Source: Chrysophaeum taylorii (Eukaryota; Sar; Pelagophyceae; Pelagomonadales; Pelagomonadaceae). Taken from it: DNA of 64,000 nt. The DNA lies in contig JAQMWT010000138.1 of the NCBI GenBank assembly GCA_029834535.1, positions 1 to 64,000 on the forward strand. Reading direction: 5' to 3'. Below, one piece after another: positions 5,091-56,028 of this stretch. The notes beneath the pieces were generated by a model, which ran no database searches, was not told the origin of the DNA, and worked only from the letters and a program-made list of their open reading frames with translations. Numbering within the stretch: the first letter of the stretch is position 1; each line of letters starts with the position of its first letter. The translations under genes and the position numbers were made by a program.

Positions 5091-5094
5091 CATG

Positions 5095-9383: not shown

Positions 9384-9480
9384 CGGGTTTAGGAGCAAAC
9401 TCAAAGGATTAGGGGCGGAGCGTGCGCTGAATAAAAGCAGCTTAGATTGGCGGGAGTCCGAGCGTCGAGCAGAAAGGAGA
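9384..9480 (-). repeat. Dispersed ~85-bp repeat, copy 3
   Basis: Carries TTTAGGAGCAAACTCAAAGG, then GGGCGGAGCGTGCGCTGA and CAGCTTAGATTGGCGGG, matching the reversed units elsewhere. Confidence 0.75.
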
Positions 9481-9499
9481 ACTGTGGTGAGCATCGGGT

Positions 9500-22157: not shown

Positions 22158-22336
22158 CCGCCTCCGGTGAACATGGCGAGGCCAACGAGCCAGACTCCGT
22201 CAACGAGCCCGCCCTCGAGGAGGAGGAGGAGGAGGAGGATGAGAGCCCAGCTCCCGAGGAGAACCTCCGCGACTACCTTATGGACCTCGGATACGCCGCA
22301 TTCTACCATGAGGCCGCCACATTCCTAACTAACTAA
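22158..22336 (+). other. Short acidic open frame, possible exon remnant
   Basis: The frame reads EHGEANEPDSVNEPAL, seven Glu residues, then DESPAPEENLRDYLMDLGYA and AFYHEAATFLTN before a stop in an (AACT)n run. It lacks an ATG. The helical end looks protein-like, but no family is recognised. Confidence 0.2.
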
Positions 22337-22344
22337 CTAACTTC

Positions 22345-22640
22345 AGACCTCTCCCGAGCATGGGGGCCAGGTCGGACCGGCAGGAGCCGGTACGGAATCA
22401 CAGAGGAAAATCACGCAGTTGGGGCAGAGGCGAGGGACGAGGACGGACTTGTTGATGGTGGACCGCCACTGCGCGCGGTCTCGTGCGAGGTCGTGCAAAA
22501 GCGTCGCAGGCCGCGGACGTGTTGGCCCACGAACAATCGACCTGTCCGTCGCGTTCTGCCCAACCGAGCGAACCCCATCCCAGCGCGGACTTTCCGGGTG
22601 CTAACCGGCCAGCCCGGGAGGCGAGCAGGCACCGTCTCAC
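22345..22640 (-). mobile_element. Dispersed LINE-like 3'-end fragment, copy B
   Basis: Matches copy A at 1805-2150 over two blocks. The minus strand reads RDRAQWRSTINKSV-LVPRL followed by LCPNCVIFLC, resembling the C-terminal end of non-LTR retrotransposon ORFs. It lies directly before an RNase H-bearing element remnant on the opposite strand. Confidence 0.5.
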
Positions 22641-27068: not shown

Positions 27069-27160
27069 CGTTGATCGTTGTTCCGAGACACGCACGCCTC
27101 AACGTCTAGGGGCTCCGCGTCATCCGAAACCCTGTGGTTAGCGCCCGCCCACGCAACAAT
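27069..27160. promoter_or_regulatory. Candidate bidirectional promoter, phosphatase / docking-complex gene
   Basis: The two ATGs point away from each other with only 92 bases between them, so both 5' UTRs and promoters must overlap here. No TATA box is visible. Confidence 0.5.
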
Positions 27161-28873
27161 ATGGAGAAGGACAAGGCGGAGATCGCCCAGCTCCAGCGGG
27201 AGTTTCGTCACATGGAATTGAACCGCAAGACGTACGCCGACGAGAGTTACCAGGTGCTTCGGAGGCAGCAGGCGACAATCGCCAAGCTGCGCAAGGAGAA
27301 CGAGGCGCTCAAGGCGGAGCTCGCGTTGGAAATGCGACGGCAGACAATGACGCCGGCGGAAATGGCGGAGATGAGTAAGGGCCACGAAGACCTCGAGCGG
27401 CTCAAGGCGCAAGAGGAGGAGGAGACGAAGCGAATCCAGCAAATCGACTCGCAGATCGCCGCGATGCAGCACAAGGCGACGCAGCTTCGCAAAGAAATGG
27501 GGGGCGTCAATGCCGCTCGGGAGAGCCAGGCGTGCGTCCAGAAGCAGGTAAAGATATTGGAGAACCGGCTCGACCAGGCACTTGTCAAGTTCAACCAGGC
27601 GCTCGCGAAGAACAAGGAACTGCGCGAGCAGATCGACGATTTGAGGCGAGAACGCGTCGTCTTCGATAACATCTACCGTAAGCTCGAGCGCGAACTTCAC
27701 GATAAGAAGCGCCAGATGGCCAACGTTATCGAGGTCTCGAACCTAGCGTACGAGCAGCGCGACAACTACCAAATGGAAATCGCGGCGATCGAGCAGGCGA
27801 ACCGCAAGGAGCAGGACGACTTTGAAGCGCAGATGCTCGAGCTCAATCGGATACTCGAGGACGAGCTCCAAATCCCCCCGCCGACGGCGCTGACGACCGT
27901 CGCGTCGCAGCGGAGCGTCGCGCACGACGCGAGCCTCGACGACTCGGCGCGACACCAGAAGAACAACACGACGAGCAAACAAAAGAGCAGCAACAACAAG
28001 GCGGCCGTCGTCTCAAAGGAGAAGCAGGAACTCCAGGTCGGCGAGGAGCGCGTACAAAATTTCGAAGAGGCGTTCAACCGAATCAAGCAGGCGACGGGGA
28101 TCACCCAAATAGACGAGCTCGTCCGCGTGTTCATCAAGAACGAGGATCAGAATTTCTCGTTGTTCAACTACGTAAACGAGCAGACCAACGAGATCGAAAA
28201 GCTAGAGGAACAGCTCCAGCAGTTGCGCGACGAGGAACAAAAGTACACCCAAGAGTCGGGCGACGACGTCAATCAACACAAGCTCATCCTCCAGGAGCTC
28301 GACGCCAAGCTCGAAACAATCAATACGCAGGCCGACAAGTACGAGGCCAAATGCCAAGAGTACCAAAACATTATCGACAACCTCAAGCAGGCCATTGCGT
28401 CGTGCTTCACCAAGTTAGAGTGCACGAGAAGTTCTTCCGACTTGCTCGCCGACTCGACCGTCACCGAAGCAAACATGCTTCAGCACCTTGCCATTATCGA
28501 GGAAAAGTGCAACGAAATCATCAGACAGTACTGCGCGATCAAGGCCGCGGAGGCGAAGGCGACATCGACCGACGCAGGCGCATCATCCTCGCAGGCCGAA
28601 GTCCTTCCGTCGGTGCTCGGCATTGGCCCCACCACCCCCATGGGCCAGGATCTCATTCACGTGACACCACCCAAACTTGAAGACTACTCCTCGGAGGAAG
28701 ACGACGACGACGACGAAGGCGAAACTCGACCCTTGACGCGTGACGAGCTCAAAGCGAAGACTCTCAATCGCATGTATCGCCGTGGAAATCGTGAGTCTGC
28801 CGGCGGGGCCCCCCGCACCGCCACCAAGCCGACCAACGCCCGACTAAACGGCGGTGCGAAAAAGCAAAAGTGA
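27161..28873 (+). CDS. Outer dynein arm docking complex coiled-coil subunit (ODA1 / CCDC63 / CCDC114 type, 570 aa)
   Basis: A single exon starting at the ATG MEKDKAEIAQLQREF. The protein is almost entirely coiled coil to residue 470. It contains the segment best conserved in this family, VKILENRLDQALVKFNQALA followed by LREQIDDLRRERVVFDNIYR and KLERELHDKK, then NVIEVSNLAYEQRD. The C-terminal 80 residues are acidic (SSEEDDDDDEGETR) then basic. In Chlamydomonas ODA1 (DC2) and vertebrate CCDC114/ODAD1, this subunit anchors outer dynein arms to doublet microtubules. Its presence shows that the organism builds outer-arm-bearing axonemes. The upstream in-frame codons to 27134 include no ATG. Confidence 0.9.
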   Translation: MEKDKAEIAQLQREFRHMELNRKTYADESYQVLRRQQATIAKLRKENEALKAELALEMRRQTMTPAEMAEMSKGHEDLERLKAQEEEETKRIQQIDSQIAAMQHKATQLRKEMGGVNAARESQACVQKQVKILENRLDQALVKFNQALAKNKELREQIDDLRRERVVFDNIYRKLERELHDKKRQMANVIEVSNLAYEQRDNYQMEIAAIEQANRKEQDDFEAQMLELNRILEDELQIPPPTALTTVASQRSVAHDASLDDSARHQKNNTTSKQKSSNNKAAVVSKEKQELQVGEERVQNFEEAFNRIKQATGITQIDELVRVFIKNEDQNFSLFNYVNEQTNEIEKLEEQLQQLRDEEQKYTQESGDDVNQHKLILQELDAKLETINTQADKYEAKCQEYQNIIDNLKQAIASCFTKLECTRSSSDLLADSTVTEANMLQHLAIIEEKCNEIIRQYCAIKAAEAKATSTDAGASSSQAEVLPSVLGIGPTTPMGQDLIHVTPPKLEDYSSEEDDDDDEGETRPLTRDELKAKTLNRMYRRGNRESAGGAPRTATKPTNARLNGGAKKQK

Positions 28874-33559: not shown

Positions 33560-33816
33560 CTCATCCTGGATATCGTATCATTTCTTGGTTAAAGTACTCT
33601 ACACGTGAAACCACGTCATTCAAAACGTAGAAGAGGATGTATCTTTGGGATCCACTTTACGAGCATGCCGTCAACGCATACATTCTAGGCCATCTCGCTT
33701 AGATATGGAGGCCCACGAGGCTGGCCAGCAATCTGCCGCCTCGCTCTTCGAAGGGATAAGCTTGGCGTCTCGGTTGTACTGCACGCCGCAACACCAATCG
33801 CGAGTCCCAACAAAGG
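33560..33816. promoter_or_regulatory. Candidate bidirectional promoter, C2/PH gene / dynein gene
   Basis: 257 bases separate two divergent ATGs. The dynein 5' end is uncertain: the next in-frame ATG is at 33952, so its promoter may extend further right. No core element recognised. Confidence 0.4.
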
Positions 33817-36800
33817 ATGCGTCGACGCCAACGGTGCGCCTGTTTTGCTGTTGTGTTTCGCGCAACCGATCTTCTATGCCCTCGTGCGCAGTTGTCGACG
33901 GCATTCCGGACGCTGCAGTCGAAGCTCACGACGACGCAATTGCGGCCGAAGATGACAATACGCGGGTCCAAATCGATTCCTGGCCTTTTCCGCCAGGAGA
34001 GTCTGGTGACGATAGGGACAAGTCCTCTCGAGGCATACCTGAGCCATCCGCTGATGATGAAGGCTCGTACGAAGCATGCTGTATCGACGCAAGACGTGGT
34101 CGTGTCGATAAATTCTTGCGGGGAGGAGCCTGCCGAACGGGATAGGGCGCTGGATGACGAGACTTTAGAAAGCCAGCCACAGTCGTTCTTGGAGTCGCTG
34201 AACTTGACGCAGCAACAAATGGCGTCGTTCATCGACGACACCGGCAGCTTTTTATACTTGACTCACGCCCGCGGCGCTCAGTGTTCGGGGTCTGCCTACG
34301 ATCTGATCGTTGTGGGTCATTCTGAAGTGGAATCTCATAACTACTTCACGCTGTCATGCAACGGCATCACACACTTTTCCGGCTACAACTCGGACTTCAC
34401 GCCGATGCGGCAGTGGGAACGCGAGTACGGGTTATTCCACAGGATACGACGCATACCCTTCTTCGCAAAATACAGGGCTTGGAAGACATTCAGTGTTTGG
34501 AAAAAGAATGTCAAGCGCGGGAAGATAAGGGCGAGCATCACGGCGCTTCGGGCATCGCTGTTCATCTTCATACCGTCGTTGCGGGAGGCGCTGATCAAAA
34601 TTCAGACGCTCTGCCAGGAGACCCTCCGCATGAAGCTCGTCGAGGCTGAGCCTGGTAAGACTTACGAGCTCGAGTTATTCGAGCGCGAACAGGAGCAGCT
34701 ACAGTCGGACCGCGCCAAGACGCTTGTCGTGTTCACGAGCGATGCCCAGCAGCTAGCGCGAGTCGCGTGCGACGAAGTAGTCGACGCTTTTTTGAAGACT
34801 GCCAAGATCGTGGCGGACCACCGCATGACCTTTATGGAGCGAGCCTCTCTACGTTCGGAATGCCGCAAGCTCACGCGTTTCCTTCGGCTCGTTGACTTTC
34901 ACGTTATCACAACGCTCAGAGAGCTCGCCCTCGAATCCGTACGCGTCGCCTACGAGCTTGCCTCGCCCTCCACGCTCCCGCCCTACGTTGTGCACTGCGA
35001 CGAGCCTGCCGAGACCGATGCAACAGTCAGTTTTGCGGGCATAGGCCCAGCAGATCTCGACGACGATAGCTCCGTGGATACACAGTGTGCGCCACTTCTG
35101 CGCATCGAGCTAAGCTACTCTTCGAGCGACCTCGAATGTTCGCCGTCGCTGTCTGAGGTCCAGCGCGTCTTCAGCGATCTTCTGAGCCAGTGCCTCAAAG
35201 TGGTTGGTATTCCTGACCGCATCTTCATGCATCCCGACTTGGCTCTCTACGTCATGTCTGACGCCGACAATGGTCCGGGCGACGTCGGGGTGGGGTCGTC
35301 AGGAGCTCGTGAGTCCGAGACCTCAGTCCAAGACCTTGTCGCGTCGGATGATAAGTTCGTGCGCGCTTCGGCGCAGATTCAACAAGCGTTGTCGTCGGCG
35401 TTCGAGGCGGCTATGGACTACGCTTTAGTCTTCGACCCTTTCTATGCGAAGAGCCTGGAGAACCACACATTTCATTCGAACCTGTGCGAGACCTTTTCGG
35501 GTGATGTGGATCTCAATGCGTATGCCGACGCGATTTCGCGATACCGCGGCCAGGTTGAAGAGTTTCGTGGGATGCCAGGGAGCGCCGACGTCGGCATCCT
35601 CCGTATCGATAGCTTGGCACTCAAGCGCTGCCTCCTGCCATCGCCTGTTGTTTGTCTGGACAAACTCCACGCGTTACTACCCGAGCTTATGGATGAAGGT
35701 TTCAATGTTCTTCTTGACCAACTCGGCATGATCTTGCCAGTAGTAACGGGCGTACCCTCCAACGTCGAGCACTTCATTTCTAAGAAACGAATAGTTCAGG
35801 AGGCGCTGGCTGCGTTTGAAGGCTTCAAGGCCTCCCAGCAAAAATTAATCGCCATGTCGACGCTCTTGATTAAGGAAGGTTGGCCTGTGCCCGATTACCA
35901 TAAGGCGCACCTTTTCATGGCCGACGAAAACATGTCGACGCTCGAGATTGGTATTCAGATCGCTGAGGGTCGCGAGGAAGAGGACACAAAGCGCTTTGCA
36001 GCCGAGATCGCCGAAGAGGTTCCGAGGCTCAAGAGAGCTATCAGCGAGGTCCGCGAACAGCTTGATTCCTCTATAGTTGCATCGCTCGAAGAGCAGCCAG
36101 AGAACGTCATCACCTTTCTAGAGCTTCAAGAGGAGACACTTGCCAAGCTCCGCCAGCGCACCGAGACCCTCGCCGAATACCAAGCCGAACTTAGACAGGA
36201 CGTCGACGAGTATGACACCCTCGACGAGGTCGCCACAGATCTCAACCTGAAACTCCGCCTTTGGCGCGGTATGAAGGAATGGGGCAAACTCACTGCCTTA
36301 TGGGTCACTACGCCGCTCGCTGACATCGACGCTGGCCAGCTTGAGATCCACGTCCAGGCCTACAATAAGACTGTCCACCAGGCAATGAAGGGGCTTCCGG
36401 GCAACCCAGTTGTCCCCAAGCTCAAGGAAAGCGTCGACAAGTTCACTCCTGTCCTCCCTGTTGTAGTCAATCTCCGCAACATGGCACTCCAGGAACGCCA
36501 CTGGGCCAGAATTCACGAGCTCGTCGGCGTTCAGATCCAAGGCGATACTTCTTTTTCGCTCGGCGACATCATCGACAAGGGCATCACCAGCCACCATACC
36601 GAGATCACCACCATCGCCACCAATGCTACTCAAGAGGCCGTCCTCGAGGGGATGATGGAGAAAGTCACCAAGCAGTGGGAAGCAGCCGAGTTCATTGTCC
36701 TCGAGTACAAAGACGTTAAGGATCTGTACATATTAGGAGACGTCTCCGAGAACATCGCCGCTCTAGACGAGTCCCTCGTCACCGTCAACACCGTTCTCGG

Positions 36801-39800
36801 TTCGCGCTATGTCGGCGGCATCCGCGCCTTTGTTGAGAAGTGGCGGCGCGATCTCATGCTCTTCCAGGACACGCTGGATGAGTGGCTTGCCTGCCAAAGA
36901 GCCTGGATGTACCTAGAAAGCATATTCTCGTGCGCCTGCCTAAGTCCTATTCGTCACACGGGATTGTCCCGAGTTTCTCGCTCTGCGCGACACCGTGTCC
37001 ACGTAGGTCGCCGGATATCATCCGTCAACTCCCTGCAGCTGCCAAACAGTTCCAGGCTGTCGACAAGTCTTGGAGAAGCATTATGAAGGCAACAGCAGAG
37101 GAGCCGCTCGCTCTCAAGTGCTGCTGCGTCAAAGACCGCAAGGAAACGTTTGTCAATCACAACGCTACCCTTGACAAGATCCAAAAGAACCTCGAACAGT
37201 ATCTGGTAAGGTCTAATAAGTGCAGTGCCTCGCCGAATCGACCACTCCGCCGCAGGAAACTAAATGCGCCGCTTTCCCTCGATTTTACTTTCTCAGCGCG
37301 TTTCACGGAGTCCAATCCTGCGTCGTGTATGCTGGTTTAATAGAAAGTGCAATGCGCAGGCAACGATGAGCTACTGGAGATACTCTCGCAGTCCAAGGAT
37401 CCTCAGGCCGTCCAGCCACACATGAGAAAGTGCTTTACGGAGGATCATCAACTGCTCACAAATTACGGCTTCATGTTTCTCGATCAAGTCAACAAGTTCA
37501 AGGGAAAAGACTTGATGTTCGCGTCGTATGATCCCAGGAAGAGGATGTTAGTCTACGAGCATCCTATCAGCATTGTTATCAACCCAGAAGCTTCAACACA
37601 GGTAGTTGAGTTCACGGACCAACATGAGGCCTTCCGTTGGACGAATGATGCCGATTTGTACGGGCGGTCACCGGCTGACATCGCGCGTATGAGCTCCCAG
37701 CAAGCCACATACCAAGAGCTTGCTGGCTCGGGACACGATGAAGCTGTCAGAATCCTTCAGCATCAAACAGCGGTGACTGTGACGGGTCTTTCGATGAGTC
37801 GCGTCCCTCGGTCGAGTCGCATTTCGGTCGTAGCAACTGCTAATCATGAGATGTACATCCAAGTTGGACGTGAACAAGATGGAACGAAGGTGCAAACTTG
37901 CTTTGATGTCGCGAGCCACTTTGAAAAAAAGCCCGCGAGCGACCTCGTTGCTCTTGCTGAAGTTCCCGAAAAAGACCATATCTTGCGCTTTATGGCCGTT
38001 GCAGAAGAAGGGACGTATGTGCGAGACGATTCGCCGACCATGGCGTTGATTGAATTGACGTTTACCGCTCTCAATCTGGATACTGAGGAGAAGCGCGTCG
38101 CTTTTCTCGAATTTTATGGTTTCTGGCTTGGTAATGGGTCGCTCCATTTCAACACGCGCGGCGACCCATACTCAATCGAGATCGCCCCCTTAAAAAAAAG
38201 CCACATGCCCTGGATTCTCGAACGCCTCAAAACGTGCGGTGTTTCCAAACAGCATTATTCTCGTCGCTTTCATTCTGATTCTAGCGGGATGCGAAGAGAT
38301 AAGCTGTCAATTACGGACCCTCGCTGGCTGCGCCTGCTTGCCTCGGAGTATCAGCACAAGTATCATAATTCCCGGAACTACGCGGAACAGTTTCAGGCTC
38401 AGAAGAAGATGGCTAAAATCTTTGCTCGTCCTGCTGCGAGCGCTGAAACTGTTGGTACGGATTGTCTGGAAGAAAGGTGTGGCGACGACTTCGATAGCGA
38501 CTGCGATGATGTCGATGAGGTGGACATTCGCGAATCAGGGCAAACTCGCCGCCGAAGTCTGGACGCTGTTGCACAGATTGACAATGAAGTCGTCGTTGCT
38601 GATTTAGAAGGTGCCGACGTGACTGAGTCATCCATGCCAAGTGGAGACGACGTTCGCTCGAATTCGCCGTTCTGTCGGCCTGAAGAACCAACCATCGAAG
38701 AAAAGTCCCAGGACTTTGGACGTAGCCTTAAAGATCGTCTCCGCGACAACTCGAGCGCCGTAGTTTTTCTCCGGGAACTACTCGGTGAAGAAAAATTCAT
38801 CGTTCTTCGGTGTATCATCTCAACTGAGCCTATCAACTGGACTCAGGCCAAACTCGTCGTCAGAAAAAAGCTCGAGGAAGCTGGCCTATCCGCGCCGTTC
38901 CATACGCAGGCTGCATACGCGGTCGCTACGTGGTACAAATTGATCACGGAGGCCCGGCCCAATCAACGCTCGCACGCGAATGGCAAGAAACGCGTGGATT
39001 ACCGGGCCATGAAAAGAGTGTTCGTTCCTGATTTTGAATGGTCCAAGATTGTCTTCGCGTTCGATGTTACCGAAGCTCGAAGACATCTGATGCCCGACTC
39101 AGCATCAGATCTTACATCCTCCGCACCACTGTGTTCTCGAAACGATCTCGCGCCCTTCAAACGAAAACTGGAGGTCGTCGGCACGGGCGGCTCCAAATCT
39201 GCGAAATGGCTCTTCTGGTGGGTGTTGGGCTTGAGGAAAGAGCTGGCTCGTGCCATTCTTCGCGGTTATTGTATGGCAGATGGCTGGAAAGTTGGCGATG
39301 AGAATATTGTGTTCTCATCCTCGGTGCGGTTCAGAGACCAACTCGTGCAGCTAGCTCTCCATGGTGGATACTCTGCTCAATTCAAGCTTCAAAAGCTTGA
39401 AGATTCAAAGATCTGCGCTGCCTCTCTCCATGGTGGGAAGCACCAAGTCCACAACACGCACAGACTGTGGATTGTATCATACTCATCGCATTTTGACAAG
39501 CATCGTCAACATTGCAAAAGCGGCGTGGCTGCTCCAACACTGCGGGTTAAGACAGACGTGAAGTCAAAAACATACTGTGGCAAAACATGGTGTGCGAGTA
39601 TGCCAAAAGGCTTTGTCATTGTTCGCCGCGCCCGTACTGATGAAAAGGGGATTGTTGTTTGTGCTTCGGTTCCAACGATCCAAGGCAATTGTTTTGACAA
39701 TCTTGTGAAGCTTCAATTCGGCGAGGAGCCTGGGTCCATCGATATCAATGGCATGTATTCTGGCGAGGGTGAACTCGTCGGTCTGGGCAAGAATTTGAAA

Positions 39801-42800
39801 GCGCGGGGTAAGTTCTTTTCGAAAAACGAGTCAATAGACTGTGCTTGTCGGTTCCTGCATGAGCTTGTTGTCATTGTCATCTTGTGTTCCAACAAGTCTA
39901 CACGCTTTGTTGTTGGTGGTGGCTTTTGTTGGCTGTTCGTGGTGTCGTCTCCATGTATTGGCTATGCGTTGCTCGGGAAACTATTGCACTGCGAAAAGCT
40001 GCGTGTTACCATCCATCTTCAGAAGAAACGGCGTATATTGGACGCATTCTCCTGGATTGTGGTTTCTAACGGAGTCGTCTGAGCAGTGAAACATGGCATA
40101 CTGCCACAACTAGGATAGCACTCTGTCGAACCACCTGGCTGTTGCATTTGTCATACTCGGAAGCGATAAACGAACAAGTTTATTCACGATCCTTACTTTG
40201 AACTCGTTGAATTTCCACCGGTATTTGGCGTTGATTGAGGATTTTCGCGAGGGAAGTGCGCAACTCCACCTTGTTACCAATGATACCACGACAATCGCTT
40301 TTATGAAGTCCCTGTGGTCTTGACATCCTCGTTGTCTGGCGTAGTGAATGAGTATCTTTGCGGATGGACCCACAGCGTTCGCAGCCTTGAGCTGGAGCAA
40401 GGCTATACCGGAAGAAGAATGGTGCTCAGCCCCTCTTCATCGCGGTTATAGGATTGTGCCCTGGAACCCGACTTTGAGTTCGATCAGCAACCACGCCGGG
40501 GCCATGGCCACATGTTGTACATGTTTGTTGTCAGTTGTCAGCAAACTGAACCTTCTCTATTCAGGCGGCGTCGAGGATTGGCTCTCAGCTGTAGAGCAGC
40601 GCATGAAACAAGCCCTTCATGGGGCAATGAAGACTGGCCTGCTCGACTACGACGGTCGAGTTCGTTCGGAATGGGTCCTTGACCATCCTGGGCAGGTTGT
40701 CGCGACAGTAGCACAGATGATGTGGGCTCGAGGTACCGAGAATGCGCTTGCAACAGCTCAGCCCGCGGACATAAGGGCATGGTATGACCAGAACGTCGCA
40801 GATTTGCTGGGGCTCATTCAGCAAATCCGCGGCAACCTCGTCAAGCTTCAGCGTAAGAAAATTGTTGCTCTCGTGACGACCGATGTACACGCCCGCGACA
40901 TCGTGGAGGACTTAATCAACAAAAAAGTCACAAGCAAGGGTGACTTTGCGTGGATGCAGCAGCTGCGCTACTATTGGGAACGAGTCGAAGAGAGTGAAGA
41001 CTGCCTCATTCGACACTCAGACGCCCTCATCCATTACGGTTACGAGTACATGGGTTGCACGTCACGCCTTGTCATCACGCCGCTCACCGATCGATGTTGG
41101 CTTACTCTCACAGGCAGCTACGGCCTAAAACTCGGCGCTGCACCCGCTGGTCCCGCGGGAACTGGCAAGACCGAGTCATCGAAAGACCTGGCGAAGGCGA
41201 TGGCCATCCAGTGCGTCGTCTTCAACTGCTTCGCCGAAGATCACCAACTTCTGACGAATCGTGGCTTTATGTTTCTGGACGATGTCTTAAACTACAAAGG
41301 CACTGACCTTCATTTCGCGACCTACGACCCAAGCACGCAGCAGCTGAGCTATGCGCACTGCACCCGTTTGATCGTCAACCAGGCGCGAGTTCAGGAGCTG
41401 ATCGAGTTCACACACGACGACGAGGCCAACAGATGGGGCGACGGGAGCGACTGTTATGGTCGCACTCCATCAGCAATTGCGGAGATGAAGCAAGAAGTCC
41501 AGCAAGGCAATGACCTCCGAAGCCAGCTAGAGATCGACGACGATGACGACGACGACATGCTCGATGACGACGACGTCGTGCCGCGGCCTCGCCTCGCACG
41601 GCGATCAAATCGAGTGTCGCTCATCACAACGCCAAACCATGAAATGTTCGTTCAGCGGGTCAACGTAGGCATGACCGGCCAGCTCAATTGGACCGGCACG
41701 GGCAGCGACAGTCCTGACTCACACACCAAAGTCGAAGCACACCAGCTGACAGGCGATCACACGTGCATCCGATTTCTGGCGCAAGCACCCCAGGGTGCAC
41801 GTTCTCTTGCCGATGCGCAGACCGCGATGGCAATCGAACTGACGCTCAAGTCACTTGGTGTGGACCCTACCAACGACTCGCGCGTCGTCGCTTTCTTCGA
41901 GTTCTTCGGCTTCTGGCTTGGCAATGGCTTTTTGTTCTTTTTGCATGGGCTGCCGTACGCAGTTGCCCAACACCAACTCAAGTCGCAAGATGTCGACTTT
42001 CTCACGACTCGCCTCAACCTTCTTGAAGTAGAATATTTTCTGACTTCCGAGGAAGCACACGGCGATTCGCGGCTGAACATCACAGACCCGCGCTACGTTC
42101 TGTTCTTTTTCGCTGAATATGGGAAGAAGGACCACGGAAGTAATGTCCACGCGAGGACGTCACCAATGTCTGAGATGTCGCCAATGCCTATGGCGCGGTC
42201 GTACGCGCCACACGAACTGCTTGCGCAGTACTGGGCTGACGAACAAGAGCCTGCGATCGACTGGGACGACAGTTCTGTCACGGCCCAAGACCATCAGCGC
42301 GCCGATCGTGCCTTGAGTATCTCGAACTTCATCAACAAATTCTGTCAAATTGATGATCGTGCGAAAGTCGCGAAGCGCGCCCGCCACGCTTGCGCTCTGA
42401 ATGACGAGCAACCCCCAGAAGAGACGAAGGAATCATGTAGCTCTGCTCAACCTATCGCACCTCCGGTCAAAGAAGCCATTGCCTTTCTTAAGGAGTTTAT
42501 GGGCTTGGACGATTACAATAGACTTCACAAGATCCTGTCCAAGAAGAGACTGAAGAAAACCGAGTGGCATGGTGTGGCGAACATCGTCCCAAAATATATT
42601 GAGCTGCTTCCCGCTGGGTCGGTCGCAGCGCCAAAACCCTATCACAACAACAACAAAACTGACGCACCTGTTTGACTCTCACTTCTGCATAGGTCTGTCG
42701 AAAGACCCTACAACCAGCAAGCCGCATTCGCAGTCGCCATGGCATATCTCAACATAATGAACGCGCGTGACTTACCCATGCAGGCTTCGTTCACCGACCC

Positions 42801-45800
42801 CCGCACTGCGTTTGAAGCCAAGGGCTTCCGAATTAAAAAAGAAGTTTTCGTCTTTGACCCCCTGCTCGCCCGTGACGTTTTCATCCAAGATCCCAAGATC
42901 CACGCACTGCCGGCCTTTGATCATCCAAGTCGATTAGTTGCTCCTACGTCTGCAGCGGGCGGGGCTCCATACAACTATGTGACGCCGTTCACTAAGGAGA
43001 AGTTTGATTCGAAGGACATCAAGTCAACAAAAAGACTTCTGTGGTGGATGTTGCGTCTTCAAAAAACGTGGGCTCGAGCTCTCCTCCGAGGGATCTGTTT
43101 AGCCGACGGAAGCGAGTCTGCTGATGAGAACAATATATATACAACGTCTGCACGATTCCGGGATCAGCTTGTGCGCCTGGCTCTCCACGCCGGCTTCTCG
43201 GCACGCTTCGAGCTCATTTGTCTCAAACGTTTGTGCCAAGGCTTCATCGACCACGACTACGGTGCTGGCGACGCGGCTGTCGCCTCCACTCAGAACCTCT
43301 GGATGGTCGCATATGCCACAAATTCGCCAACCGAAACGTCCGGAGCGGAAAATCCGACAATGACGTGCAAGCACGACGGTACCAAATTTGCTTCAGACTC
43401 CGACATCAAGAAGATCACTTACTCGGGAAGGACGTGGTGTGTCAACATGAGCAACGGCTACGTCGTCGCTCGTCGCGCTCATGAAGATGCCAACGGCGTC
43501 ATTACAAAGGCAACGACACCGACTATTCAAGGAAACTGTTCAGATCAAATAGACTACAAGATGATGGGGAAGCTCTTTCGTGGACTCGCGCAGTCGGGCT
43601 CGTGGACGTGAGTTGCCTTTCTCATCCGTTGTAACTTCATGGCGTCAGCAGATGCCTTGACGAGTTCAATCGTATTGATATCGAGGTGCTGTCGGTTATA
43701 GCTCAGCAGCTTCTCGTGCTGCGCGAGGGCCGCATCGCCAAGAAACGCAACATCAACTTCATGGGCGTTGAGATCAACCTCTTGGACCACCACGTCATCA
43801 TTACAATGAACCCCGGTTACGCTGGGCGTACCGAGCTACCAGACAACCTCCAGGTGTGCTTCCGTCCAGTGGCCATGATGGTGCCGAACTATGCGCTCAT
43901 CGCCGAAATCATGCTCTTTGCCGAGGGATTTGGGGACGCAAAGACGCTCTCGCGGAAGATGTGCAAGCTTTACATCCTCTGCTCAGAACAGCTCTCGCAG
44001 CAACCTCACTACGACTATGGGCTCCGAGCGGTCAAATCTGTATTGGTCATGGCGGGTGGCTTGAAGCGGGGAAATCCCGAAACTCCGGAGGACCTGGTGC
44101 TCATTCGGGCGCTTCGCGACTCGAACTTGCCCAAGTTTTTGGCGTTTGACATACCCTTGTTCTTCGCAATTCTGGCAGACCTCTTTCCTGGTGTAACGGT
44201 ACCCAACAACGACTACGGGGAATTCCAGACGGTCATGTGCGAAGAAATCAACAAGGCTGGCCTTCAGAACATATCGGGATTTCACGCCAAAGTTATTCAA
44301 ATGTTCGACATTCTGAATATTCGCTTTGGCGCGACGCTCGTTGGCCCGACTGGTGCAGGTCAGTAGACAAGAAGAGTGTGAATTCGTGTAGTTCGTGTTC
44401 AAGGTTGTTCGTCGAAAGCGATGATACCGTGATCATCGTCGTCGTCCAAACGCGAAATGATGCGCCTATGTGTTGTCATCCAGGCAAGTCGACGTGCTAC
44501 CGAATCCTGGCTGCGACAATGGGCACACTTTTCCGCTCGGGGTCGAAGAATACACAATTCCAGGAAGTGAGATTCGAGATTCTAAATCCGAAAGCAATTA
44601 CGATGGGCGAGCTATACGGGGAAGTCAACCAGGTCACTCAAGAATGGCGCGACGGCCTCGCATCAACGATTATGCGCCGCGCGGTTGGCACCGGCGCTTG
44701 AGTTCTTTGCGTTGCGCTCTGTTACTCTACTTCTCTCTCTTGCACATTTTTTTCATTGATCATCGCAGGTGGGTGATGAGACGCCCGTGCGGAAGTGGAC
44801 TGTTTTCGATGGTGCGTGCTACAAGACTTACTGACTCGCGTGATAAACGTGCCTCCTCGTCGACGCACACGACTCGCGTTTTGCTTTTCTTACTTTTAGT
44901 CTCGAGCCTTTCGTGTTTATTGTATTTTTTTGGTGGTCGCTGTGCGCTTCTAAGAAGATTCTATCTCAGGTCCTATTGATGCATTATGGTAGGGCTGCGA
45001 AGTTATGATATTGTGACGTCGTGCCCGACAGGATAGAAAACATGAACACCGTACTTGACGACAATATGACGCTGTGTCTCGCCAACGGAGAACGAATAAA
45101 GCTCAAGGTCGAAATGAAGATGCTATTCGAGGTGATGGACCTTGCGGCTGCGTCGCCTGCAACAGTGAGCCGCATCGGCGTCGTCTTTATGACACCATCC
45201 GACCTTGGCTGGATGCCCTACGTCCATTCGTGGGCCCAAAAGCTTCCCTCGCACGTTCCCGATGCTGCTCGGACGCATGTCGTCGCGCTTTTTGAGAAGT
45301 TCTTTCAGGACGGCCTGAACCACCAGCGGAAGCACTTGAAGGAGCCTGTCGGCTGCGTGGACATCCAACTGGCCACGAGCTGTGCCGTCGTCTTCCAGGC
45401 CATTTTCGCCGGGACAGGCAACGTCAACTTCGAGGCCTACAACAAGACACCCGACTTGCTGTTGAGGCTGGTCGAGAAGATTTGGTTTTTTGCGTTCAAC
45501 TGGGCTGTTGGGGGATCGATAACCTCCGACGGCCACGAGAAGTTTGACGAGTTTGCACGTGGACTCATTGAAACCAGCGGCGTAAATCTCATGCTCCCGA
45601 ACTCGGGGACGACGTACGACTGCTTCGTTCAAATCAACGACTCGGGTGGCACATTCACGCCATGGAAATCCATTGTCCCAGCATTTAACTTCGACCCAAC
45701 GCAACCCTACACGGCGATTGTTGTTCCCACCGAGGACACCACGCGCTTCAGCTTCCTCATGCGGACGCTTATCACCGAGTCAAAGCCCGTCTTCCTCACC

Positions 45801-48800
45801 GGCGTAACCGGCACCGGTCCACAAACGCCAGTGTCCTGACTTGCCGTGGACTGCTGCTTTCATTCACGCTACCTCCGCAGGGAAAACTGTGATGGTGCAG
45901 AATACCCTCAAGAGCCTCGAGCCACTTGTTGAAGATGGGGGTCTCGGAGTTGTGTCCATGTTCCTTAATTTTTCGGCGCAGACTTCGAGTCTGGTAACGC
46001 AGCAAAGTATTGAGGCCAAGCTCGAGAAGAAGCGCAAGAACCTCCTTGGTGCGCCAGCCGGGCGCAAAATCATTGTCATGGTCGATGACGTGAGCACCAG
46101 CGCCCATTCTATTATCGTAGAGAGATTGGATTGCTTCAATACGAATGTGCATAGGTCAACATGCCCCTTGTCGAGACCTACGGCGCACAGCCACCCATAG
46201 AGCTTCTTCGTCAGTTTCTCGACTTTAAAGGGTTTTACGACCGCGACAAGCTGTTTTGGAAAGACATAGTCGACACAATGCTTTTCACGGGTGCGGCACC
46301 GCCTGGAGGCGGGCGATCGGAAGTTACACCGCGCTTCAGTCGTCACTTCAATGTACTCTGCGTGCCGCCTGCCAGCGAAGGGGCAATGGGCCTGATTTTC
46401 GAAAGCATTTTCGGCGGCTTCATGGCATCTTTCGATAAGACACTCCAGTGCGCTGTCAAAGGCATCGTTGCCGGGACCATCGAGATTTACAACACCATTG
46501 CAAAGGAGCTCCTGCCAACCCCGTCGCGGTTCCATTACTCGTGAGTCATCTTAACTTCCAGGGTTCAATACGCGTTGAGTCCGCGTCGTCGCGTGCTGTC
46601 GATCCGCAGGTTCAACCTTCGCGATCTTTCAAAAGTCTTTCAAGGTCTACTTATGGTGACGCCTCAAAAGGTCAAGGACATGGAAACGTTAGCGAAACTT
46701 TGGCTCCACGAGACCCAGCGAGTCTTTTATGATCGACTCATAAACGTGACCGACCAGGCGTGGTTCGAGTCTCTGGGATGCGAGCTGCTTGCGCGGCACC
46801 TCGCGCAACCGCCGCATACTCCAGAGCAGCTCTTCGGCGACAACTCGGTCATATTTGCTGACTTTGGCAAGCCCGGCGTCGATGTCGCCAACCGCAAATA
46901 CGAATTCGTGGAGCAACAAAGCATCACACACGTCCTGTCCGACATGCTTGACGATTACAATGTCAATTTCCCGACGAAGATGAACCTCGTCTTCTTCAGT
47001 GACGCCGTGCGACACATCTGCCGCATGTGTCGCATTATTCGCCAGCCCCGTGGGAACGCCATGCTCGTCGGCGTCGGCGGTAGCGGCAAGCAGTCAACAG
47101 CGAGGCTTGCGGCTTTCGTGGCAAACATGCCGTGCCTGTCAATCGAAATCAACCGTGGTTACGGGCTCAAGGAATTCCGCGAGGACATGAAGAAGTTTAT
47201 GATCATGACTGGTGTGGAGGGCAGTAACCTCGTATTTGCGCGTTCCAGCGTGGAGGTCACCTTAATTACCGTGCAATCGATGTGACCGTTTTTGCTTTAT
47301 CAGGTCTTTACCGACAGCCAAGTTGTCGATGAGTCCATGCTCGAAGACGTCAACAGCGTGCTCAACAGCGGAGAGATTCCCAACCTATTCCCACAGGACG
47401 AACTCGACAAGATCTGCGGTGACATGATACCTGTATGCGACGCACTGGGGATTGCGGCTAGTCGGGATAACTGCATTGCAACTTTTGTGCGCCGCGTTTG
47501 GGACAAACTGCACATCGTTTTGTGCATGTCTCCAGTCGGCGACGCGTTGCGCGTTCGCTGCCGCCAGTTTCCTTCGTTAATAAACTGTGCGACGCTGAGT
47601 CCGAGCCTCGGACTCTTCTTCTTGTATCCGAGCTCATGTCATTGTCACATTTAGTATTCGTGTGTGTCAACCTCTCGAATCCTTGCACTGAATGCTCGAC
47701 CCCAGGTTCCACGATAGACTGGTATCTTGGATGGCCTGGCTCGGCGCTTGTTGCCGTCGCAAGTCACTTTTTATCGTCGGTCAAGCTTGGAAGCGGAAGC
47801 GAAGAGCTTGAGACGCAACATCGAGAGAGCATTGTCCAGCTATGCGTAAAGGTGCACTTGAGCATCGGGGAAATGAGCGAGGAGTTTTTCGCTAAGCTAC
47901 GACGTCGAACCTACACGACGCCGAAGTCATATCTCGACCTTATCAACATGTACTCGACCAAGCTTGGGGAGCTCCAGGCCCGAGTTGACGTCAAGATCGA
48001 GCAGATGACTGTGGGAACCCAGAAGCTGAGCGAGACTAATGCCATCGTCGATGGACTGCGTGGCGAGCTCAAGCAACTCGAACCCGTTCTCGTGGAAAAA
48101 AAGGCCGCCGCCGAGAAGATGCTCAACCAGGTGGCGATCGACCAGGCCGAGGCTGACAAACAGAAGGAAAAAGTCAGCACCGAGGAAGCAACGCTAAGTA
48201 AACAGTCCCAGGAGGTCGCGGCTGTTGCCGCCGAAGCGCAGGCGGATCTCGATGTAGCGCTCCCCGCGCTCAATGCCGCTGTAAAAGCGCTCGACTCACT
48301 CACCAAGAACGACATCACTGAAGTCAAAGCGTTCAAGAGCCCGCCACTTGCAGTCAAAGTCACCATGGAGGGCATCTGCATCATGCTTGAGCGCAAGCCG
48401 GACTGGGACGAGGCCAAGAAAGTGCTCGGAGACAGCGACTTTCTCAACAAGCTCAAGACGTACGACAAAGACAACATCAAAGACTCGGTAATTAAGAAGA
48501 TCCAAAAGTACATCACAGTACGTAGACGTATACGTCATGAAACCCGCGGCTTCGTTGCTTGACAATCGCTCGTGTAGGATCAAAACATGCAAGTTGACGT
48601 TGTAACGAAAGTATCACAAGCGGCAAAGGGACTGTGTGCGTGGTAGCTACATCGAGCACTATTGAGTCGCTCAGAATTTGCCTTTCTCACATTGTGCCGT
48701 GTCGCAGGTATGTGGATTCACGCCATGAATGTCTACCACAAGGTTGCCAAGGAAGTGGCGCCGAAGCGGGAGCGCGTCAACGCGATGAACGAGCAGCTCG

Positions 48801-51800
48801 CCAAGGCAAACGCCTCGCTAAAAGAGAAGCAGGATACTCTCCAGGCTGTCCTCGACAAGGTCGCTGCACTGCAGGAGCAGTGCGATAACACGGTCGACGA
48901 GAAACAGGAGCTTGAAGCTGCACAAGAGCAGACTTCGCTCCGTTTAACGAATGCCGAAAAGTTGACGTCTGGCCTCTCCTCTGAGGGCATTCGATGGAAA
49001 GCCAACCTCGAAGCCTTTTCAGTGCAGCGCGTGACTCTCATCGGTGAGTTGTTCCAACGTTTGGGGACACTGAGGTGACACATCCTGTGTTAGGCGACAC
49101 TTTGCTCTCGTGCGCGGCCATCTCCTACTACGGACCATTCACGGGTGCCTACCGTGATCGACTCATGAATATGTGGCTCGAGGAGGCAAAGCGCAGCAAA
49201 CTTCCGTGCAGCGAGAGTCCGACGCTTCTCACCACTGTCGGCGATCCAGTCAAAGTTCGCGAGTGGCAGACTCAAAACTTGCCGACAGACATCGTCTCTA
49301 CAAACAACGCAATACTCTGCACGACTGGAAGAAGATGGCCACTCATGATCGACCCACAAATGCAGGTATGCCCACTTGTGTCATACGCCTCGGTTGGCGT
49401 GAAACTGTTGGATGTGTGGCGTGAGGATTCTAGCGGCATATTACGTCGACAAGAAGATTTACGCTGGCTTTGATGTTCCTACCCTAGACATATCTCGTTA
49501 GTCTCACTTATCACCGCTTGTCGAAAAAAAAATGCTATCTCAATTTGGCTTACTTTCGCGTGGTGATCCCAAGTTCGTTCGTCTCAGGCAAACCGCTGGA
49601 TTCGAAAGATGGAAGAACGTAACGAGCTGCTGACGACGACGATGTCTGATCTTAATCTCCTCCGTGTTCTTGAAGCGGCGATTCGCAACGGGAAGCCATT
49701 GCTGATTGAAGACGTTGGTGAAAATTTGGAGCCGGCGCTCGAACCAATACTACAGAGAGCAACGTTCATTGAGGGCAATCGCGTCCTCATCCGAATTGGC
49801 GATTCCAACGTGGACTACGATGACGGCTTCCGGCTCTACATGACGTCCAAGTTGTCTAACCCACACTATCTCCCAGAGGTTAGTTCGCACTATTCTGTTT
49901 TCGCCAAGTCATGTTCCCACGATATGATGTCGAGGTTCGAGATCTTGGCTTTCACAGGTCTGCATAAAAACCACTATAATAAATTTCTTCGTGACGCTGG
50001 AAGGCCTAGAAGAGCAGCTGCTTGCCGCGGTCGTCAAAGCAGAACGCCCGGAAGTAGAAAAGAAAAACGTCTCTCTTCAGCTCTCGATGGCTGCCGACCG
50101 AAAGAAACTTGCGGAGCTCGAGGCAGAAATTCTCAAACGTCTGTCGGAGAGCAAAGGTACGTTGTTGCGCCTAGAATTTATTTATTTATCGGTGTTTGTC
50201 ATCTTAAATGTGCTACTTCTCAGACTTTGCCATCTTCCGCGCGCGACTGTTCTTTGCCATGTCAGTTGTTTTATATTCAATTTCGTGCGCGCGTGATGTA
50301 GGAAACATTTTGGACGATGAAGATCTCATAGACACCCTGGCGGACTCAAAGAGCTTCTCAACGATGATCAACGAGCGTTTAGAGGCTGCAGAGGTCACCC
50401 AGAAGGAGATCCACGAGGCGCGCGAGGAGTACCGGTCCGTTGCAACCAGAGGAGCTCTGCTGTATTTCGTGATTGCCGACCTTTCTCTCATCGATCCAAT
50501 GTACGCGTATAGTTTGCAGTACTTCTCCAGCCTCTTCACCCGGTGTTTGCGCGACGCGGAGCCATGTGCTGACTTGGCCAGTCGTCTTCAAACACTCGTT
50601 AGTTATTCGACCGAGGTGATTTACGCGAACATATGCCGAGGTCTTTTTGAACACCATAAGGCGCTTTTCTCTGCGCTGTTAGCCTTTTCGATCCTACGCC
50701 ACGCGAAAGTCATTAGCTCGAGGGAGTGGAATCTGCTGATTCGTGGCGCGGGCGTTGGTGCGGACAAGACTTCGCAGCAAAAGAATCCTCACGCAGACAA
50801 GATCAACGAGCAGGCGTGGGACTTGATCTGCGCCATGGAACATTTGCCAACTACAAGTGGCGACTTTAAGGCCGAGGGGAACGATGTAAAGCATATCTTG
50901 GGGGGCCTGGCAGAGTCGCTCGCCACGAATTGGAAGGCATGGCAGCGGTTTATGGAAGCGGAGCAGCCTCACGAAGAGCCGCTCCCAGAGCCGTTCGATG
51001 ACAGAGTGACTCCATTTGGCAAGCTTCTCCTGGTGAAAGCACTACGAGATGATAAGGTTCTCTTGGCCATCAACGGTTATGTGCGTGCCATGTTCGGCGA
51101 CGCGCTTGCGGACAGTCCGTCGGCGACGATGGAGCAGATCTACGCCGATCTAGACAACGCCACGCCGTGTATATTCATTCTTTCGAAGGGCTCAGATCCG
51201 ACCAGTCTTCTCTTCAAACTCGCCAAGAGCAGGAGCTACAGCGACCGGCTTCACTTAGTTTCGCTCGGTCAGGGCCAAGGCCCCGCGGCGCGGGCTCTCG
51301 TGGAGCGCGGCTGCCGCACGGGCGACTGGGCGCTACTTCAAAACTGCATGCTTGCTAAGTCTTGGATGGGCGATCTTGAGCTCATGGTCTTCGAACTGCA
51401 GGAGAATCGCGAGAAAACACACCAAGACTTCAGGCTCTTCCTGACATCGTCGCCGGCGGACTACTTCCCCGTCTCGGTCCTCCAGAACGGCGTTAAGATG
51501 ACAAACGAGCCCCCCAAGGGTATTCGCGCGAATCTGCTGCGATCATATGCAAATCTTGTCAACGCCGACGACTTCGAATCAAACTCCAAACCTGCGGCCT
51601 TTAAACGCCTTACTTCTTCATTATGCTTCTTTCACGCTAATGTTCTCGAGAGGCGAAAATTTGGCCCCCTCGGTTGGAATATCCGCTATGCGTTCGACGA
51701 GTCCGACCTCGAGACGTCGATCGCCATACTCAACCGCTTTCTCAACGAGCAAGAGGATATTCCGTGGGACGCCCTACGATTCGTTGTTGGCCACATCAAC

Positions 51801-53093
51801 TACGGCGGCCGAGTGACTGACGACTGGGACCGGCGCTGCCTCCTGACGATTCTCGGCACGTTCTTCCACGAGCTCGTGCTCGAAAAAAACAGAGCAGATG
51901 ACGACTACGCCGCATATACCTTCTCCAAGTCGGGCATCTACCATCCGGCCTCGACAGGCGACGTCGCTTCGCACAAGGCGTACTTCGACTCGCTGCCGAG
52001 TGTCGACAACCCCGAGTTCTTCGGCATGCACGAGAACGCCAACAGAAGCTTCAATCGCACCATGTCGTCGGCACTCGTTGCTTCGATTCTCCAACTGCAA
52101 CCTCGAGAGAGCTCGAGCGGCGCGGGAAAATCCTCCGACGAGGTGGTCCTCGACGTCATTGCGGACATCCAGGCCAAGTTACCGGCGCAGCTTGACGAGG
52201 ACGATGCGGGCAAGCAGACATTCATCGTTCAAGAGAATGGCCTGCTAACACCGCTCGACACTGTTCTCAAGCAAGAAATCGTGAAATTCAACCGCCTTCT
52301 CAGTCGAATGGCGAGCTCGCTCGTTGAGCTTCACAAGGCCATCAATGGTTTCGTTACGATGTCCTCCGACCTGGACCACATGTACACCGCCTTCCTCCAA
52401 AATACACTTCCGCCCATCTGGTCCAATGTCTCTTTCGCGTCCCTCAAGACCCTGGCTTCGTGGGTTAAGGATGTCATATTCCGAGTCGACTTCATGAAGT
52501 TCTGGCTCCTCGACGGCCTTCCGGCATCTTTCCCTCTCCCTGTTTTCTTCTTCCCCCAGGGCTTCATGACAGGCACGCTCCAGACATATGCGCGCAAGTA
52601 CCAAGTTGCCATCGACACCCTCCAATTCAAATTTGCCTCCCTCACTTCCGACCTGCCCAACGTCGGTCCAGACGATGGCGTCTACGTCTCAGGCCTCTAC
52701 ATGGAAGGCGCACGATGGGATTTCGACGATCACCTCGTCCGAGAATCCAAGCTAGGAGAGATGTTCGTCCCTATGCCTGTCATCCATTTCCAGCCAGCCG
52801 TCGGCCACAAGACACCCGACGGATGGTACGCCTGCCCGGTACGTCCATCGCGGGAATCGTCTTTGCTTTGCACCCTTTTACTGCAACTTTCGCTTAGGTG
52901 TACAAGACGGCAGAAAGGAAAGGCGTTCTATCCACAACCGGCATGAGTCTGTCCCCGCGTATCTACGTTTTTGGCCCTGCTCACGCGTGCCACAGGTACA
53001 AATTTCGTCGTCGCAGTCGAACTCCCAACGAGCGTCGACCCGAGCGCGTGGGTCCTGGCTGGAGTGGCGTGCTTGTGCAATCTCACCGACTAG
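33817..53093 (+). CDS. Axonemal dynein heavy chain (inner-arm, DNAH6-like) containing two inteins
   Basis: ATP-driven flagellar motor. Exons: 33817-36929, 37007-37205, 37256-37295, 37360-39807, 40565-42617, 42693-43607, 43652-44358, 44484-44683, 44769-44811, 44970-44988, 45032-45816, 45881-46089, 46155-46540, 46610-47231, 47304-47586, 47706-48517, 48578-48635, 48708-49043, 49094-49365, 49588-49878, 49958-50156, 50302-52838, 52898-52946, 52996-53093. They total 16,674 nt (5,557 aa), or 4,059 aa without inteins. Tail: NYFTLSCNGITHF and FFAKYRAWKTFSVWKKNV. Linker: WLACQRAWMYLESIF. P-loops: AAA1 GPAGTGKT (41149), AAA2 GPTGAGKS, AAA3 GVTGTGKT, AAA4 GVGGSGKQ; Walker B is CLDEFNRI. Stalk coiled coil and microtubule-binding tip at about 47930-49040 (KYITDQNMQVDVVTKVS). 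C-terminus VYKTAERKGVLSTTGMSTNF. All splices are GT-AG except one likely GC-AG (37296-37359). The subfamily is by resemblance. The start may instead be the ATG at 33952. Confidence 0.95.
37431..39689 (+). mobile_element. Intein 1 in dynein heavy chain (753 aa, with endonuclease domain)
   Basis: The dynein reads SKDPQAVQPHMRK, then CFTEDHQLLTNYGFMFLD begins a 753-residue insert ending VPTIQGN. Dynein then resumes with Cys (CFDNLVKLQFGEE). Block A starts with the nucleophile Cys1. Block B is VVATANHEMY (TxNH). LAGLIDADG motif 1 is FLEFYGFWLGNGSLHF and motif 2 is ARAILRGYCMADGW. Block F is KTWCASMPKGFVIVRRA. The last residue is Asn with Gly, not His, before it, and +1 is Cys. Inteins excise after translation and ligate the flanks; all the splicing residues except the penultimate His are present. 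The insert is open throughout with no intron. The acidic charged stretch at about residues 330-430 is linker. Endonuclease activity is doubtful because motif 1 has Asn for Asp. Confidence 0.93.
39808..40564 (+). other. Unusually long intron (757 bp) just after intein 1
   Basis: Donor GTAAGT after KAR-G and acceptor CTATTCAG before GVEDWLSAVEQRMK restore the conserved dynein sequence, so no extra exon is needed. It is more than three times longer than any other intron placed in the window. A 97-codon minus-strand frame (40110-40400) lies inside, without recognisable motifs. I see no self-splicing intron or transposon signature. Confidence 0.75.
41227..43536 (+). mobile_element. Intein 2 in dynein AAA1 domain (745 aa, with endonuclease domain)
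   Basis: Dynein reads GPAGTGKT (41149-41172), then AIQCVVFN. CFAEDHQLLTNRGFMFLDDV opens the intein, which ends TTPTIQGN, and dynein resumes with CSDQIDYKMMGKLFRGLAQ. Block A, block B (ITTPNHEMFV), LAGLIDADG motif 1 (FFEFFGFWLGNGFLFF), motif 2 (ARALLRGICLADGS) and block F (RTWCVNMSNGYVVARRA) all match intein 1 in order. The two are clearly related, one likely derived from the other or both from a common source. Cys1, the block B His, terminal Asn and +1 Cys are present; the penultimate residue is again Gly. An Asp-rich tract lies at 41537-41575. A spliceosomal intron (42618-42692) interrupts the endonuclease region. The insertion would disable ATP hydrolysis at AAA1 unless the intein splices. 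Confidence 0.93.
42618..42692 (+). other. Spliceosomal intron inside intein 2 (75 bp)
   Basis: Donor GTCGGT follows LLPA-GG, and acceptor TGCATAG precedes G-TCTGTCGAA. Removing 75 bases (25 codons) skips the stop at 42673-42675 and joins LLPAGSV to ERPYNQQAAFAVAMAYL. That aligns with intein 1 AGLSAPFHTQAAYAVATWYK. Unspliced, the intein would end prematurely. Confidence 0.85.
44970..44988 (+). other. 19-nt micro-exon of the dynein gene
   Basis: The exon supplies only G-PIDAL-W between VRKWTVFD and IENMNTVLDDN, a stretch conserved in dynein AAA2. It is flanked by introns of 158 bases (44812-44969) and 43 bases (44989-45031). The upstream exon is only 43 nt. Confidence 0.85.
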
Positions 53094-55319: not shown

Positions 55320-56028
55320 AAGACCTCGTGGTAAACGACATTGCGCGCGTAGACGCCGGGCCTAGACGCCGGGGTGGCGTTGTCGGTATTGCGCAACGTG
55401 GGGTAGGGTGGAGTCGTCGACCCAGAAGACGATGTCCTCGGGCTTGCCGATTCGGCTGAGAGCCACGTAGAGCTGGCCGTGGCTGAAGAGGGCTTTGGTA
55501 AGGGGGCGCCGACCTTGCGAGCGTCGGGCCCTGACTCTTGTTGATCGTCATGGCGAAGGCGGACCGCAAGGGAAACTGGCGTCGGCGCAGCTCGAAGGGA
55601 AGCTCGCCCTACTTCGTGGTGAGGTCGAGGTTTTTCTTGACTCCGACCCGTTTCCGCTCGGCCATCCGTGCTGGCACCGCCCCCACCTTGGCTTCCCAGA
55701 TCTTGATCTTCCGAGTCAGTACCCGACGTAGAGGATCCCACTCGCCACCCTTCTGCGCCTCCATCGCGAAGCACCCTGCGAGTCGCCCGGGCGCGAACCT
55801 GTCAATGACGCTCCCCATCCCCTCGATGTCGCGTCGTCGCCCAGAAGGCATGGAGGTACCGCGCTCGAAGCTCGTGAAGCTCCTGTCTCTTGCCGGCGAC
55901 CTGCGCGTACGAATCCCACGCAAAGCACATAGAGACGCCGCGCCGAAGGGCTGGTGGCTAGCCTTCGTCGGGGAGTGTGTCTTTTTCGCGTTATGACGCA
56001 CCAAAATTCCAAAAATTCCCCAAATCAT
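55320..56028 (-). mobile_element. Helitron/PIF1-like helicase C-terminal remnant 2
   Basis: Minus-strand frames give RVLTRKIKIWEAKVGAVPAR, RVGVKKNLDLTTKYGELPFE, LRRRQFPLRSAFAMTINKSQ and then LYVALSRIGKPEDIVFWVDD-type sequence near 55420. These are the last motifs of PIF1-family Helitron helicases (RRxQFPxRxAFAMTINKSQGQ, LYVALSR). More is preserved than at 5095-5628, but the frame changes more than once, so it is not functional. The Rep nuclease part was not found. Confidence 0.7.

Follow-up and report, generated by a model that had tools for sequence, protein, structure and literature searches.

The locus examined here raises the question of what two large in-frame inserts represent in the gene of a motor protein. 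The window, by which we mean the whole stretch of 64,000 nucleotides (nt) from the pelagophyte Chrysophaeum taylorii (assembly GCA_029834535.1, contig JAQMWT010000138.1, positions 1 to 64,000 of the forward strand), contains a gene for an axonemal dynein heavy chain which is interrupted twice within the part coding for the motor. As judged from their sequences and, for the first, from a predicted structure, both inserts are very probably inteins, each comprising a Hint splicing domain that encloses a LAGLIDADG endonuclease domain. An original prediction, made from the letters and open reading frames (ORFs), had proposed such a pair; this identity now has the support of profile matches, of the order in which the motifs occur, of the catalytic residues and of the insert boundaries, to which the predicted fold is added for intein 1.

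The dynein gene and the boundaries of its inserts

The host is a DNAH6-like inner-arm axonemal dynein heavy chain gene, which a codon-model gene finder places at 33705..52943 on the plus strand, the limits being approximate. Pfam domains above their cut-offs are distributed along it (DHC_N2, AAA lid, AAA_7, AAA_8, microtubule (MT) stalk, D6 and the C-terminal domain), and the AAA1 P-loop GPAGTGKTE is intact. A search of solved chains with the dynein gives 8glv_Fm as the top match, listed without the DNAH6 name and belonging to what we take to be a Chlamydomonas axoneme entry, and the next three matches are DNAH6 chains. The motor domains and the DNAH6-type best solved matches bear out the proposed axonemal dynein host.

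The coding sequence (CDS) assembled by the gene finder has 5548 amino acids (aa) in 18 exons with both inserts in frame, and 4050 aa without them. The program is a simple codon model, trained partly on the same ORFs, and forbids stops by construction, so that a stop-free model is only weak evidence for an intact gene; its exon edges are also wrong in places, as at 39808, where a GTAAGT is read through. The length of 4,059 aa given earlier for the dynein without its inserts is therefore supported only approximately. The 17 introns of the model measure from 50 to 678 nt, and 10 of them, including the one inside intein 2 described below, do not exceed 80 nt. An ORF matching ODAD1, of the outer dynein arm docking complex, lies about 5 kilobases upstream of the dynein gene (27134-28870, expectation value (E) 5e-70). 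Genes of this kind point to a flagellated eukaryote as the source.

The first insert falls in the linker, where the motor begins, and the second in AAA1, just past the Walker A motif, in agreement with the earlier placement of both in the motor; in five alignments per site, the residues there show good conservation. At site 1 the upstream extein segment (37344..37430, on the plus strand as are all features of this gene, with an approximate start) ends in AVQPHMRK and is followed by intein 1, a run of 753 stop-free codons from Cys1 to TIQGN (37431..39689). The extein then resumes with CFDN and extends to a GTAAGT donor at 39808 (39690..39807), its first residue being a native dynein Cys that would act as the +1 nucleophile. 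At site 2, intein 2 occupies 2310 nt (41227..43536) and, after removal of one intron, codes for 745 aa from Cys1 to a second TIQGN; the extein segment that follows, CSDQIDYKMMGKLFRGLAQSGSW, extends to a GTGAGT donor at 43608 (43537..43607). Between blocks A and B of intein 2, a repeat tract (41535-41573) encodes an Asp-rich stretch.

The original prediction gave lengths of 753 and 745 aa and four junctions, HMRK/C...GN/CFDN at site 1 and VVFN/C...GN/CSDQ at site 2. Both lengths proved exact, the second only once a 75-nt intron is removed, and all four junctions were confirmed. With site 1 closed, 63 residues align to 8glv_Fm without a gap and the DNAH6 chains are gap-free at the junction; with site 2 closed, about 460 residues align to solved dynein chains, again with a gap-free junction. 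Exact removal of each in-frame insert, as expected of an intein, restores a conserved host protein. The +1 Cys is native to dynein, the aligned chains reading HMGKCFD and HLRKCFD at site 1, and CVVFNCGD and CVVFNCSD at site 2.

These boundaries also bear on whether the inserts could instead be introns that leave at the RNA level, among them spliceosomal introns with a homing endonuclease inside, such as are reported in mirusviruses (PMC12768974), an idea with which the LAGLIDADG motifs of both inserts would agree. The conserved junction can be obtained in three registers for insert 1 and six for insert 2, but in none of them does the insert begin and end with GT...AG. GT-AG ends are thus incompatible with the restored junctions, which speaks against RNA splicing of the inserts, if not strictly against a non-standard (non GT-AG) intron. 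Moreover, each insert keeps the reading frame of its exteins open for about 750 codons, in insert 2 once an intron is taken out, and has Hint parts from its very first residue through to its final one, which an RNA intron would not need. We consider removal of the inserts as RNA very improbable.

A candidate for RNA splicing is found within the CDS of intein 2, namely a spliceosomal-type intron of 75 nt (42618..42692, plus strand, GTCGGT...CATAG, phase 2), a feature that the original prediction lacked. It contains an in-frame TGA, its removal restores the frame, and the alignment with intein 1, which itself needs no intron, runs on across it. The gene finder picked this intron unprompted, and in size it resembles several others predicted in the same gene.

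Kinship with viral inteins, splicing residues and predicted fold

The two inserts share 33% identity over 800 columns (BLAST, E 6e-113), and neither intein profile matches beyond noise elsewhere in the window, leaving the two insert places only. Both weakly match one and the same part of Corynebacterium phage P1201, with E of 0.3 and 4; the insert in the ThyX of this phage is noted in its own record as a 'hypothetical intein'. A profile of the P1201 ThyX intein and nine tblastn relatives, one of which also has a Hint domain noted in its record, scores insert 2 at 75.7 bits and insert 1 at 54.9, as against 4.9 for the best of 1000 shuffles, and the nine inteins that remain when P1201 is left out still give 68.5 and 51.4 bits, respectively (best of 1000 shuffles, 5.2). 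A wider profile was built from 67 IMG/VR loci, chosen from the 80 top-ranking among at least 568 viral relatives. The 13 omitted comprise P1201 itself, five relatives identical to kept ones, one nearly identical (L128), one 75% identical to a kept one (L141), and five whose match ends at residue 343 and which have no Gly-Asn there. With this profile insert 1 reaches 95.0 bits and insert 2 89.7 (best of 1000 shuffles, 4.3), and in hhalign the two halves reach 98.1% and 97.5%.

The profile matches follow the same order in both inserts: residue 1, block B, first LAGLIDADG motif, second LAGLIDADG motif and block F. In the reverse direction, a profile made from the insert pair picks out viral inteins when run on 7042 ORFs from 181 loci, with a best E of 7e-11. 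Homology to inteins is thus supported by profiles in both directions, and chance is excluded, because the inserts match each other and score with the viral intein profile far above the shuffles. Direct scans of viral contigs yielded less: three scans of a collection with the insert pair, its pandoravirus content being unchecked, found no relative by sequence; a motif scan matched one contig, which is missing from the profile matches; the four stretches with a VRRNG...WTGN ending contain no intein by eye; and a further scan contributed none of the 25 best matches of the insert-pair profile.

The residues needed for splicing are present in both inserts. Block B, with the Thr and His of the splicing active site, reads TANHEM in intein 1 (37836..37853) and TPNHEM in intein 2 (41629..41646), and block F reads YCGKTWCASMPKGFVIVRR (39573..39629) and YSGRTWCVNMSNGYVVARR (43420..43476), respectively. 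Each intein carries Cys1, the Thr and His of block B, the Cys of block F, a final Asn and a +1 Cys, and the combination of Cys at position 1, Thr and His in block B, and a C-terminal Asn followed by Cys is that of class 1 inteins. All of the 80 viral relatives have Cys1 as well.

The fold was predicted for intein 1 only, using AlphaFold2 (AF2) and an alignment of 70 rows in which the inteins of the window were combined with viral ones. The model has a mean predicted local distance difference test score (pLDDT) of 64.6 and a predicted template modelling score (pTM) of 0.65; its Hint and endonuclease parts are mostly of high confidence, with mean pLDDT of 89-97 in the ten-residue blocks of 1-60, 131-150, 601-650 and 701-753, and its middle is disordered. 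Among solved structures, Foldseek ranks the TliVMA intein (7qsu) best (E 2.2e-5), followed by PI-SceI (1vde) and PI-PfuI. The TliVMA intein and PI-SceI have Hint and LAGLIDADG domains in common with the predicted fold but differ in their low identity to intein 1 (7-11%) and in having V-ATPase (VMA) hosts. The model therefore points to a Hint fold for intein 1. Among the viral models in BFVD, the best match by a wide margin is the DNA polymerase of Pandoravirus inopinatum (A0A0B5J8H7, E 3.1e-26), with the RNA polymerase of Emiliania huxleyi virus second (E 6.7e-15). The pandoravirus match has 17% identity over 796 columns including gaps, and a root-mean-square deviation (rmsd) of 19 over the whole alignment, and it would be located in the intein part of the polymerase; Pandoravirus polB is known to contain up to two inteins (PMC6950457). 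Apart from the low identity, these inteins differ from intein 1 of the dynein in their host, a viral DNA polymerase.

Several observations weigh against taking the inserts for splicing inteins. In Pfam neither has a Hint domain above cut-off and only LAGLIDADG_3 appears, below threshold (E 0.085 and 0.038); NCBIfam, searched with intein 2 as two pieces, gives no relevant match, and searches of PHROGs and of the sequences of solved structures with the inserts give nothing above threshold. The ThyX intein of P1201, taken as a control, likewise has no Hint domain above cut-off in Pfam (Hint_2, E 0.13), while LAGLIDADG_3 passes; since this intein too lacks a Hint match above cut-off, the nulls from Pfam, NCBIfam, PHROGs and the solved structures are not counted against the inserts. 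The comparison with Hint and LAGLIDADG models proposed in the original prediction thus fell short with Pfam and succeeded with the viral intein profiles and the fold match of intein 1. As for that fold, the TliVMA match has an rmsd of 10.7 over 789 columns and a TM-score of 0.31 by query and 0.57 by target, so that agreement is closer within the domains than overall, and the alignment behind the model includes viral inteins, the pLDDT from the single sequence being 35.6. Both inteins end in Gly-Asn and not in His-Asn, yet 73 of the 80 viral relatives likewise have Gly-Asn where their match stops, and the -1 Lys at site 1 is not a residue known to splice well. Lastly, splicing, transcription and translation are predictions from the sequence. 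On balance, protein splicing of the ordinary class 1 kind at both dynein sites appears the most likely outcome.

Endonuclease state, proposed splicing and probable origin

Two LAGLIDADG motifs lie between the Hint halves of each intein. In intein 1 the first, GFWLGNGSL (38118..38144), has Asn235 in place of Asp or Glu, and the second, LRGYCMADGW (39258..39287), retains Asp617; in intein 2 the first, GFWLGNGFL (41908..41934), again has Asn for Asp or Glu, and the second, LRGICLADGS (43084..43113), retains its Asp. The acidic metal-binding residue of motif 1 is therefore missing from both, a point absent from the original prediction. Of the 67 aligned viral inteins, 45 carry Glu and 22 Asp at this position, and the other 13 also have one or the other. 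Homing is doubtful, because both dynein inteins have Asn where all 80 viral relatives are acidic, and the endonuclease may be weak or dead in both, with splicing kept. Its inactivity is less than certain, because 62 of 64 TerL-like phage inteins (viral loci L002-L066) also have Asn in motif 1 (LGNG). They make up most of what was found by a scan with a YGFWLGNG-type motif, the pattern of which permitted only Asn or Asp, and their TerL identity was judged by eye and not by annotation; their match is best to the first LAGLIDADG block (hhalign 70.7%) and hardly extends to the second.

A motif that looks decayed in both inteins (Asn235 and its equivalent) might extend to the entire locus, so that the inteins no longer splice and the dynein gene no longer functions, and the stop-free gene model offers little to the contrary. 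The splicing residues are nevertheless kept in both inserts, the AAA1 P-loop is intact, and dynein domains reach the Pfam cut-offs along the gene; loss of function of this kind seems improbable.

If the inteins do splice, the following course may be envisaged. The gene would be transcribed, its ordinary introns, including the one in intein 2, would leave the RNA, and a precursor of about 5,550 aa would be translated. Cys1 of each intein would attack the upstream peptide bond, which is Lys-Cys at site 1 and Asn-Cys at site 2, the chain would be transferred onto dynein's own Cys directly after the intein, and the terminal Asn would cyclise, freeing the intein. The exteins would thereby be ligated as HMRK-CFDN and VVFN-CSDQ, and the resulting dynein would be about 4,050 aa long. 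Since the two sites break the core of the motor, in the linker and AAA1, the motor should depend on splicing at each of them, which would have to precede folding of the core. The loss of the endonuclease acidic residue from both inteins, with the splicing residues kept, fits retention for splicing and not for spreading. One could imagine the inteins as a post-translational gate, in which splicing responsive to redox state or stress sets the time at which functional inner-arm dynein is produced, but we regard this as unlikely.

The two inteins are, by sequence comparison, distant paralogues of a lineage found in viruses. They resemble the phage inteins with a ...VRRNGK..GN ending (P1201 ThyX and its IMG/VR relatives) in block order, Cys1, the TxxH motif, the LAGLIDADG pair, the Cys and Arg-Arg of block F and, in most, the Gly-Asn ending. 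They differ from them in length, the ten aligned phage inteins having 304-371 aa as against about 750 aa, and in the +1 residue, which is mostly Ser in the viral relatives (54 of 67) and Cys in the dynein, besides the motif 1 residue discussed above. Because the pair belongs to a viral lineage and the nearest fold is that of the pandoravirus polymerase, arrival from a giant virus would be the likeliest source.

Base composition provides a further view of this history. The GC content at third codon positions (GC3) is 0.534 in intein 1 and 0.616 in intein 2, compared to 0.659-0.692 in the exteins (141 overlapping stretches of 750 codons). These values suggest that intein 1 is the less adapted to the host; intein 2, in which the intron lies, comes closer to host composition. 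The contrast fits either two arrivals or a copying event followed by unequal ageing, composition alone being indecisive. The low GC3 of intein 1 and the viral nature of the nearest fold match would also suit a chimera of the assembly, in which a viral polymerase-type intein had been joined to the dynein gene. Such an artefact would have to account for two inserts, for four exact in-frame junctions beside dynein Cys residues fit to serve as +1 nucleophiles, and for a host-type intron inside insert 2, and its probability is close to negligible.

Away from the dynein gene, the window contains dispersed repeats of 77-91% identity, some of them inverted (1785-2152 and 22322-22628; 4880-5209, 9385-9492, 20836-21028 and 55363-55473), among which is an 86-bp tandem pair (20864-21025). 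ORFs related to ion transport are located at 10947-13581 on the minus strand and at 15412-17607 and 60831-62099 on the plus strand; their contents are adjacent cNMP-binding and Ion_trans domains, an EF-hand Na/Ca exchanger and a CLC chloride channel.

A cytoskeletal motor as a probable intein host

The most common nuclear intein hosts given in Table 1 of Green et al. 2018 (PMC5784728) are Prp8, VMA1, RNA polymerase, threonyl-tRNA synthetase (ThrRS), GLT, CHS and eIF5B. The original prediction had named much the same hosts, and the table adds ThrRS and eIF5B to them. According to that paper, the commonest nuclear inteins are found in proteins of RNA processing, transcription, translation and metabolism; its Table 1 includes no cytoskeletal motor, and the word 'dynein' is absent from its main text. 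The earlier statement that no intein was known from dynein is likewise upheld by our literature search for intein and dynein, in which no such report was found among the titles and the beginnings of abstracts listed, a report elsewhere being possible. As far as searched, what is new is the host protein, dynein, since the mechanism and the kind of element are already known. Two further points of interest, for which no priority is claimed, are how divergent the pair is and the presence of an intron within intein 2.

A pair of inteins in a cytoskeletal motor would broaden the range of eukaryotic proteins invaded by these elements. Since this pair falls below the Pfam cut-offs for Hint and LAGLIDADG, similar ones may be overlooked as 'long' dyneins in annotated genomes. 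The intron within intein 2 would mean that one and the same product is processed at the RNA level and then at the protein level, and the link in fold to the pandoravirus polymerase suggests a testable route by which inteins may pass from giant virus to host.

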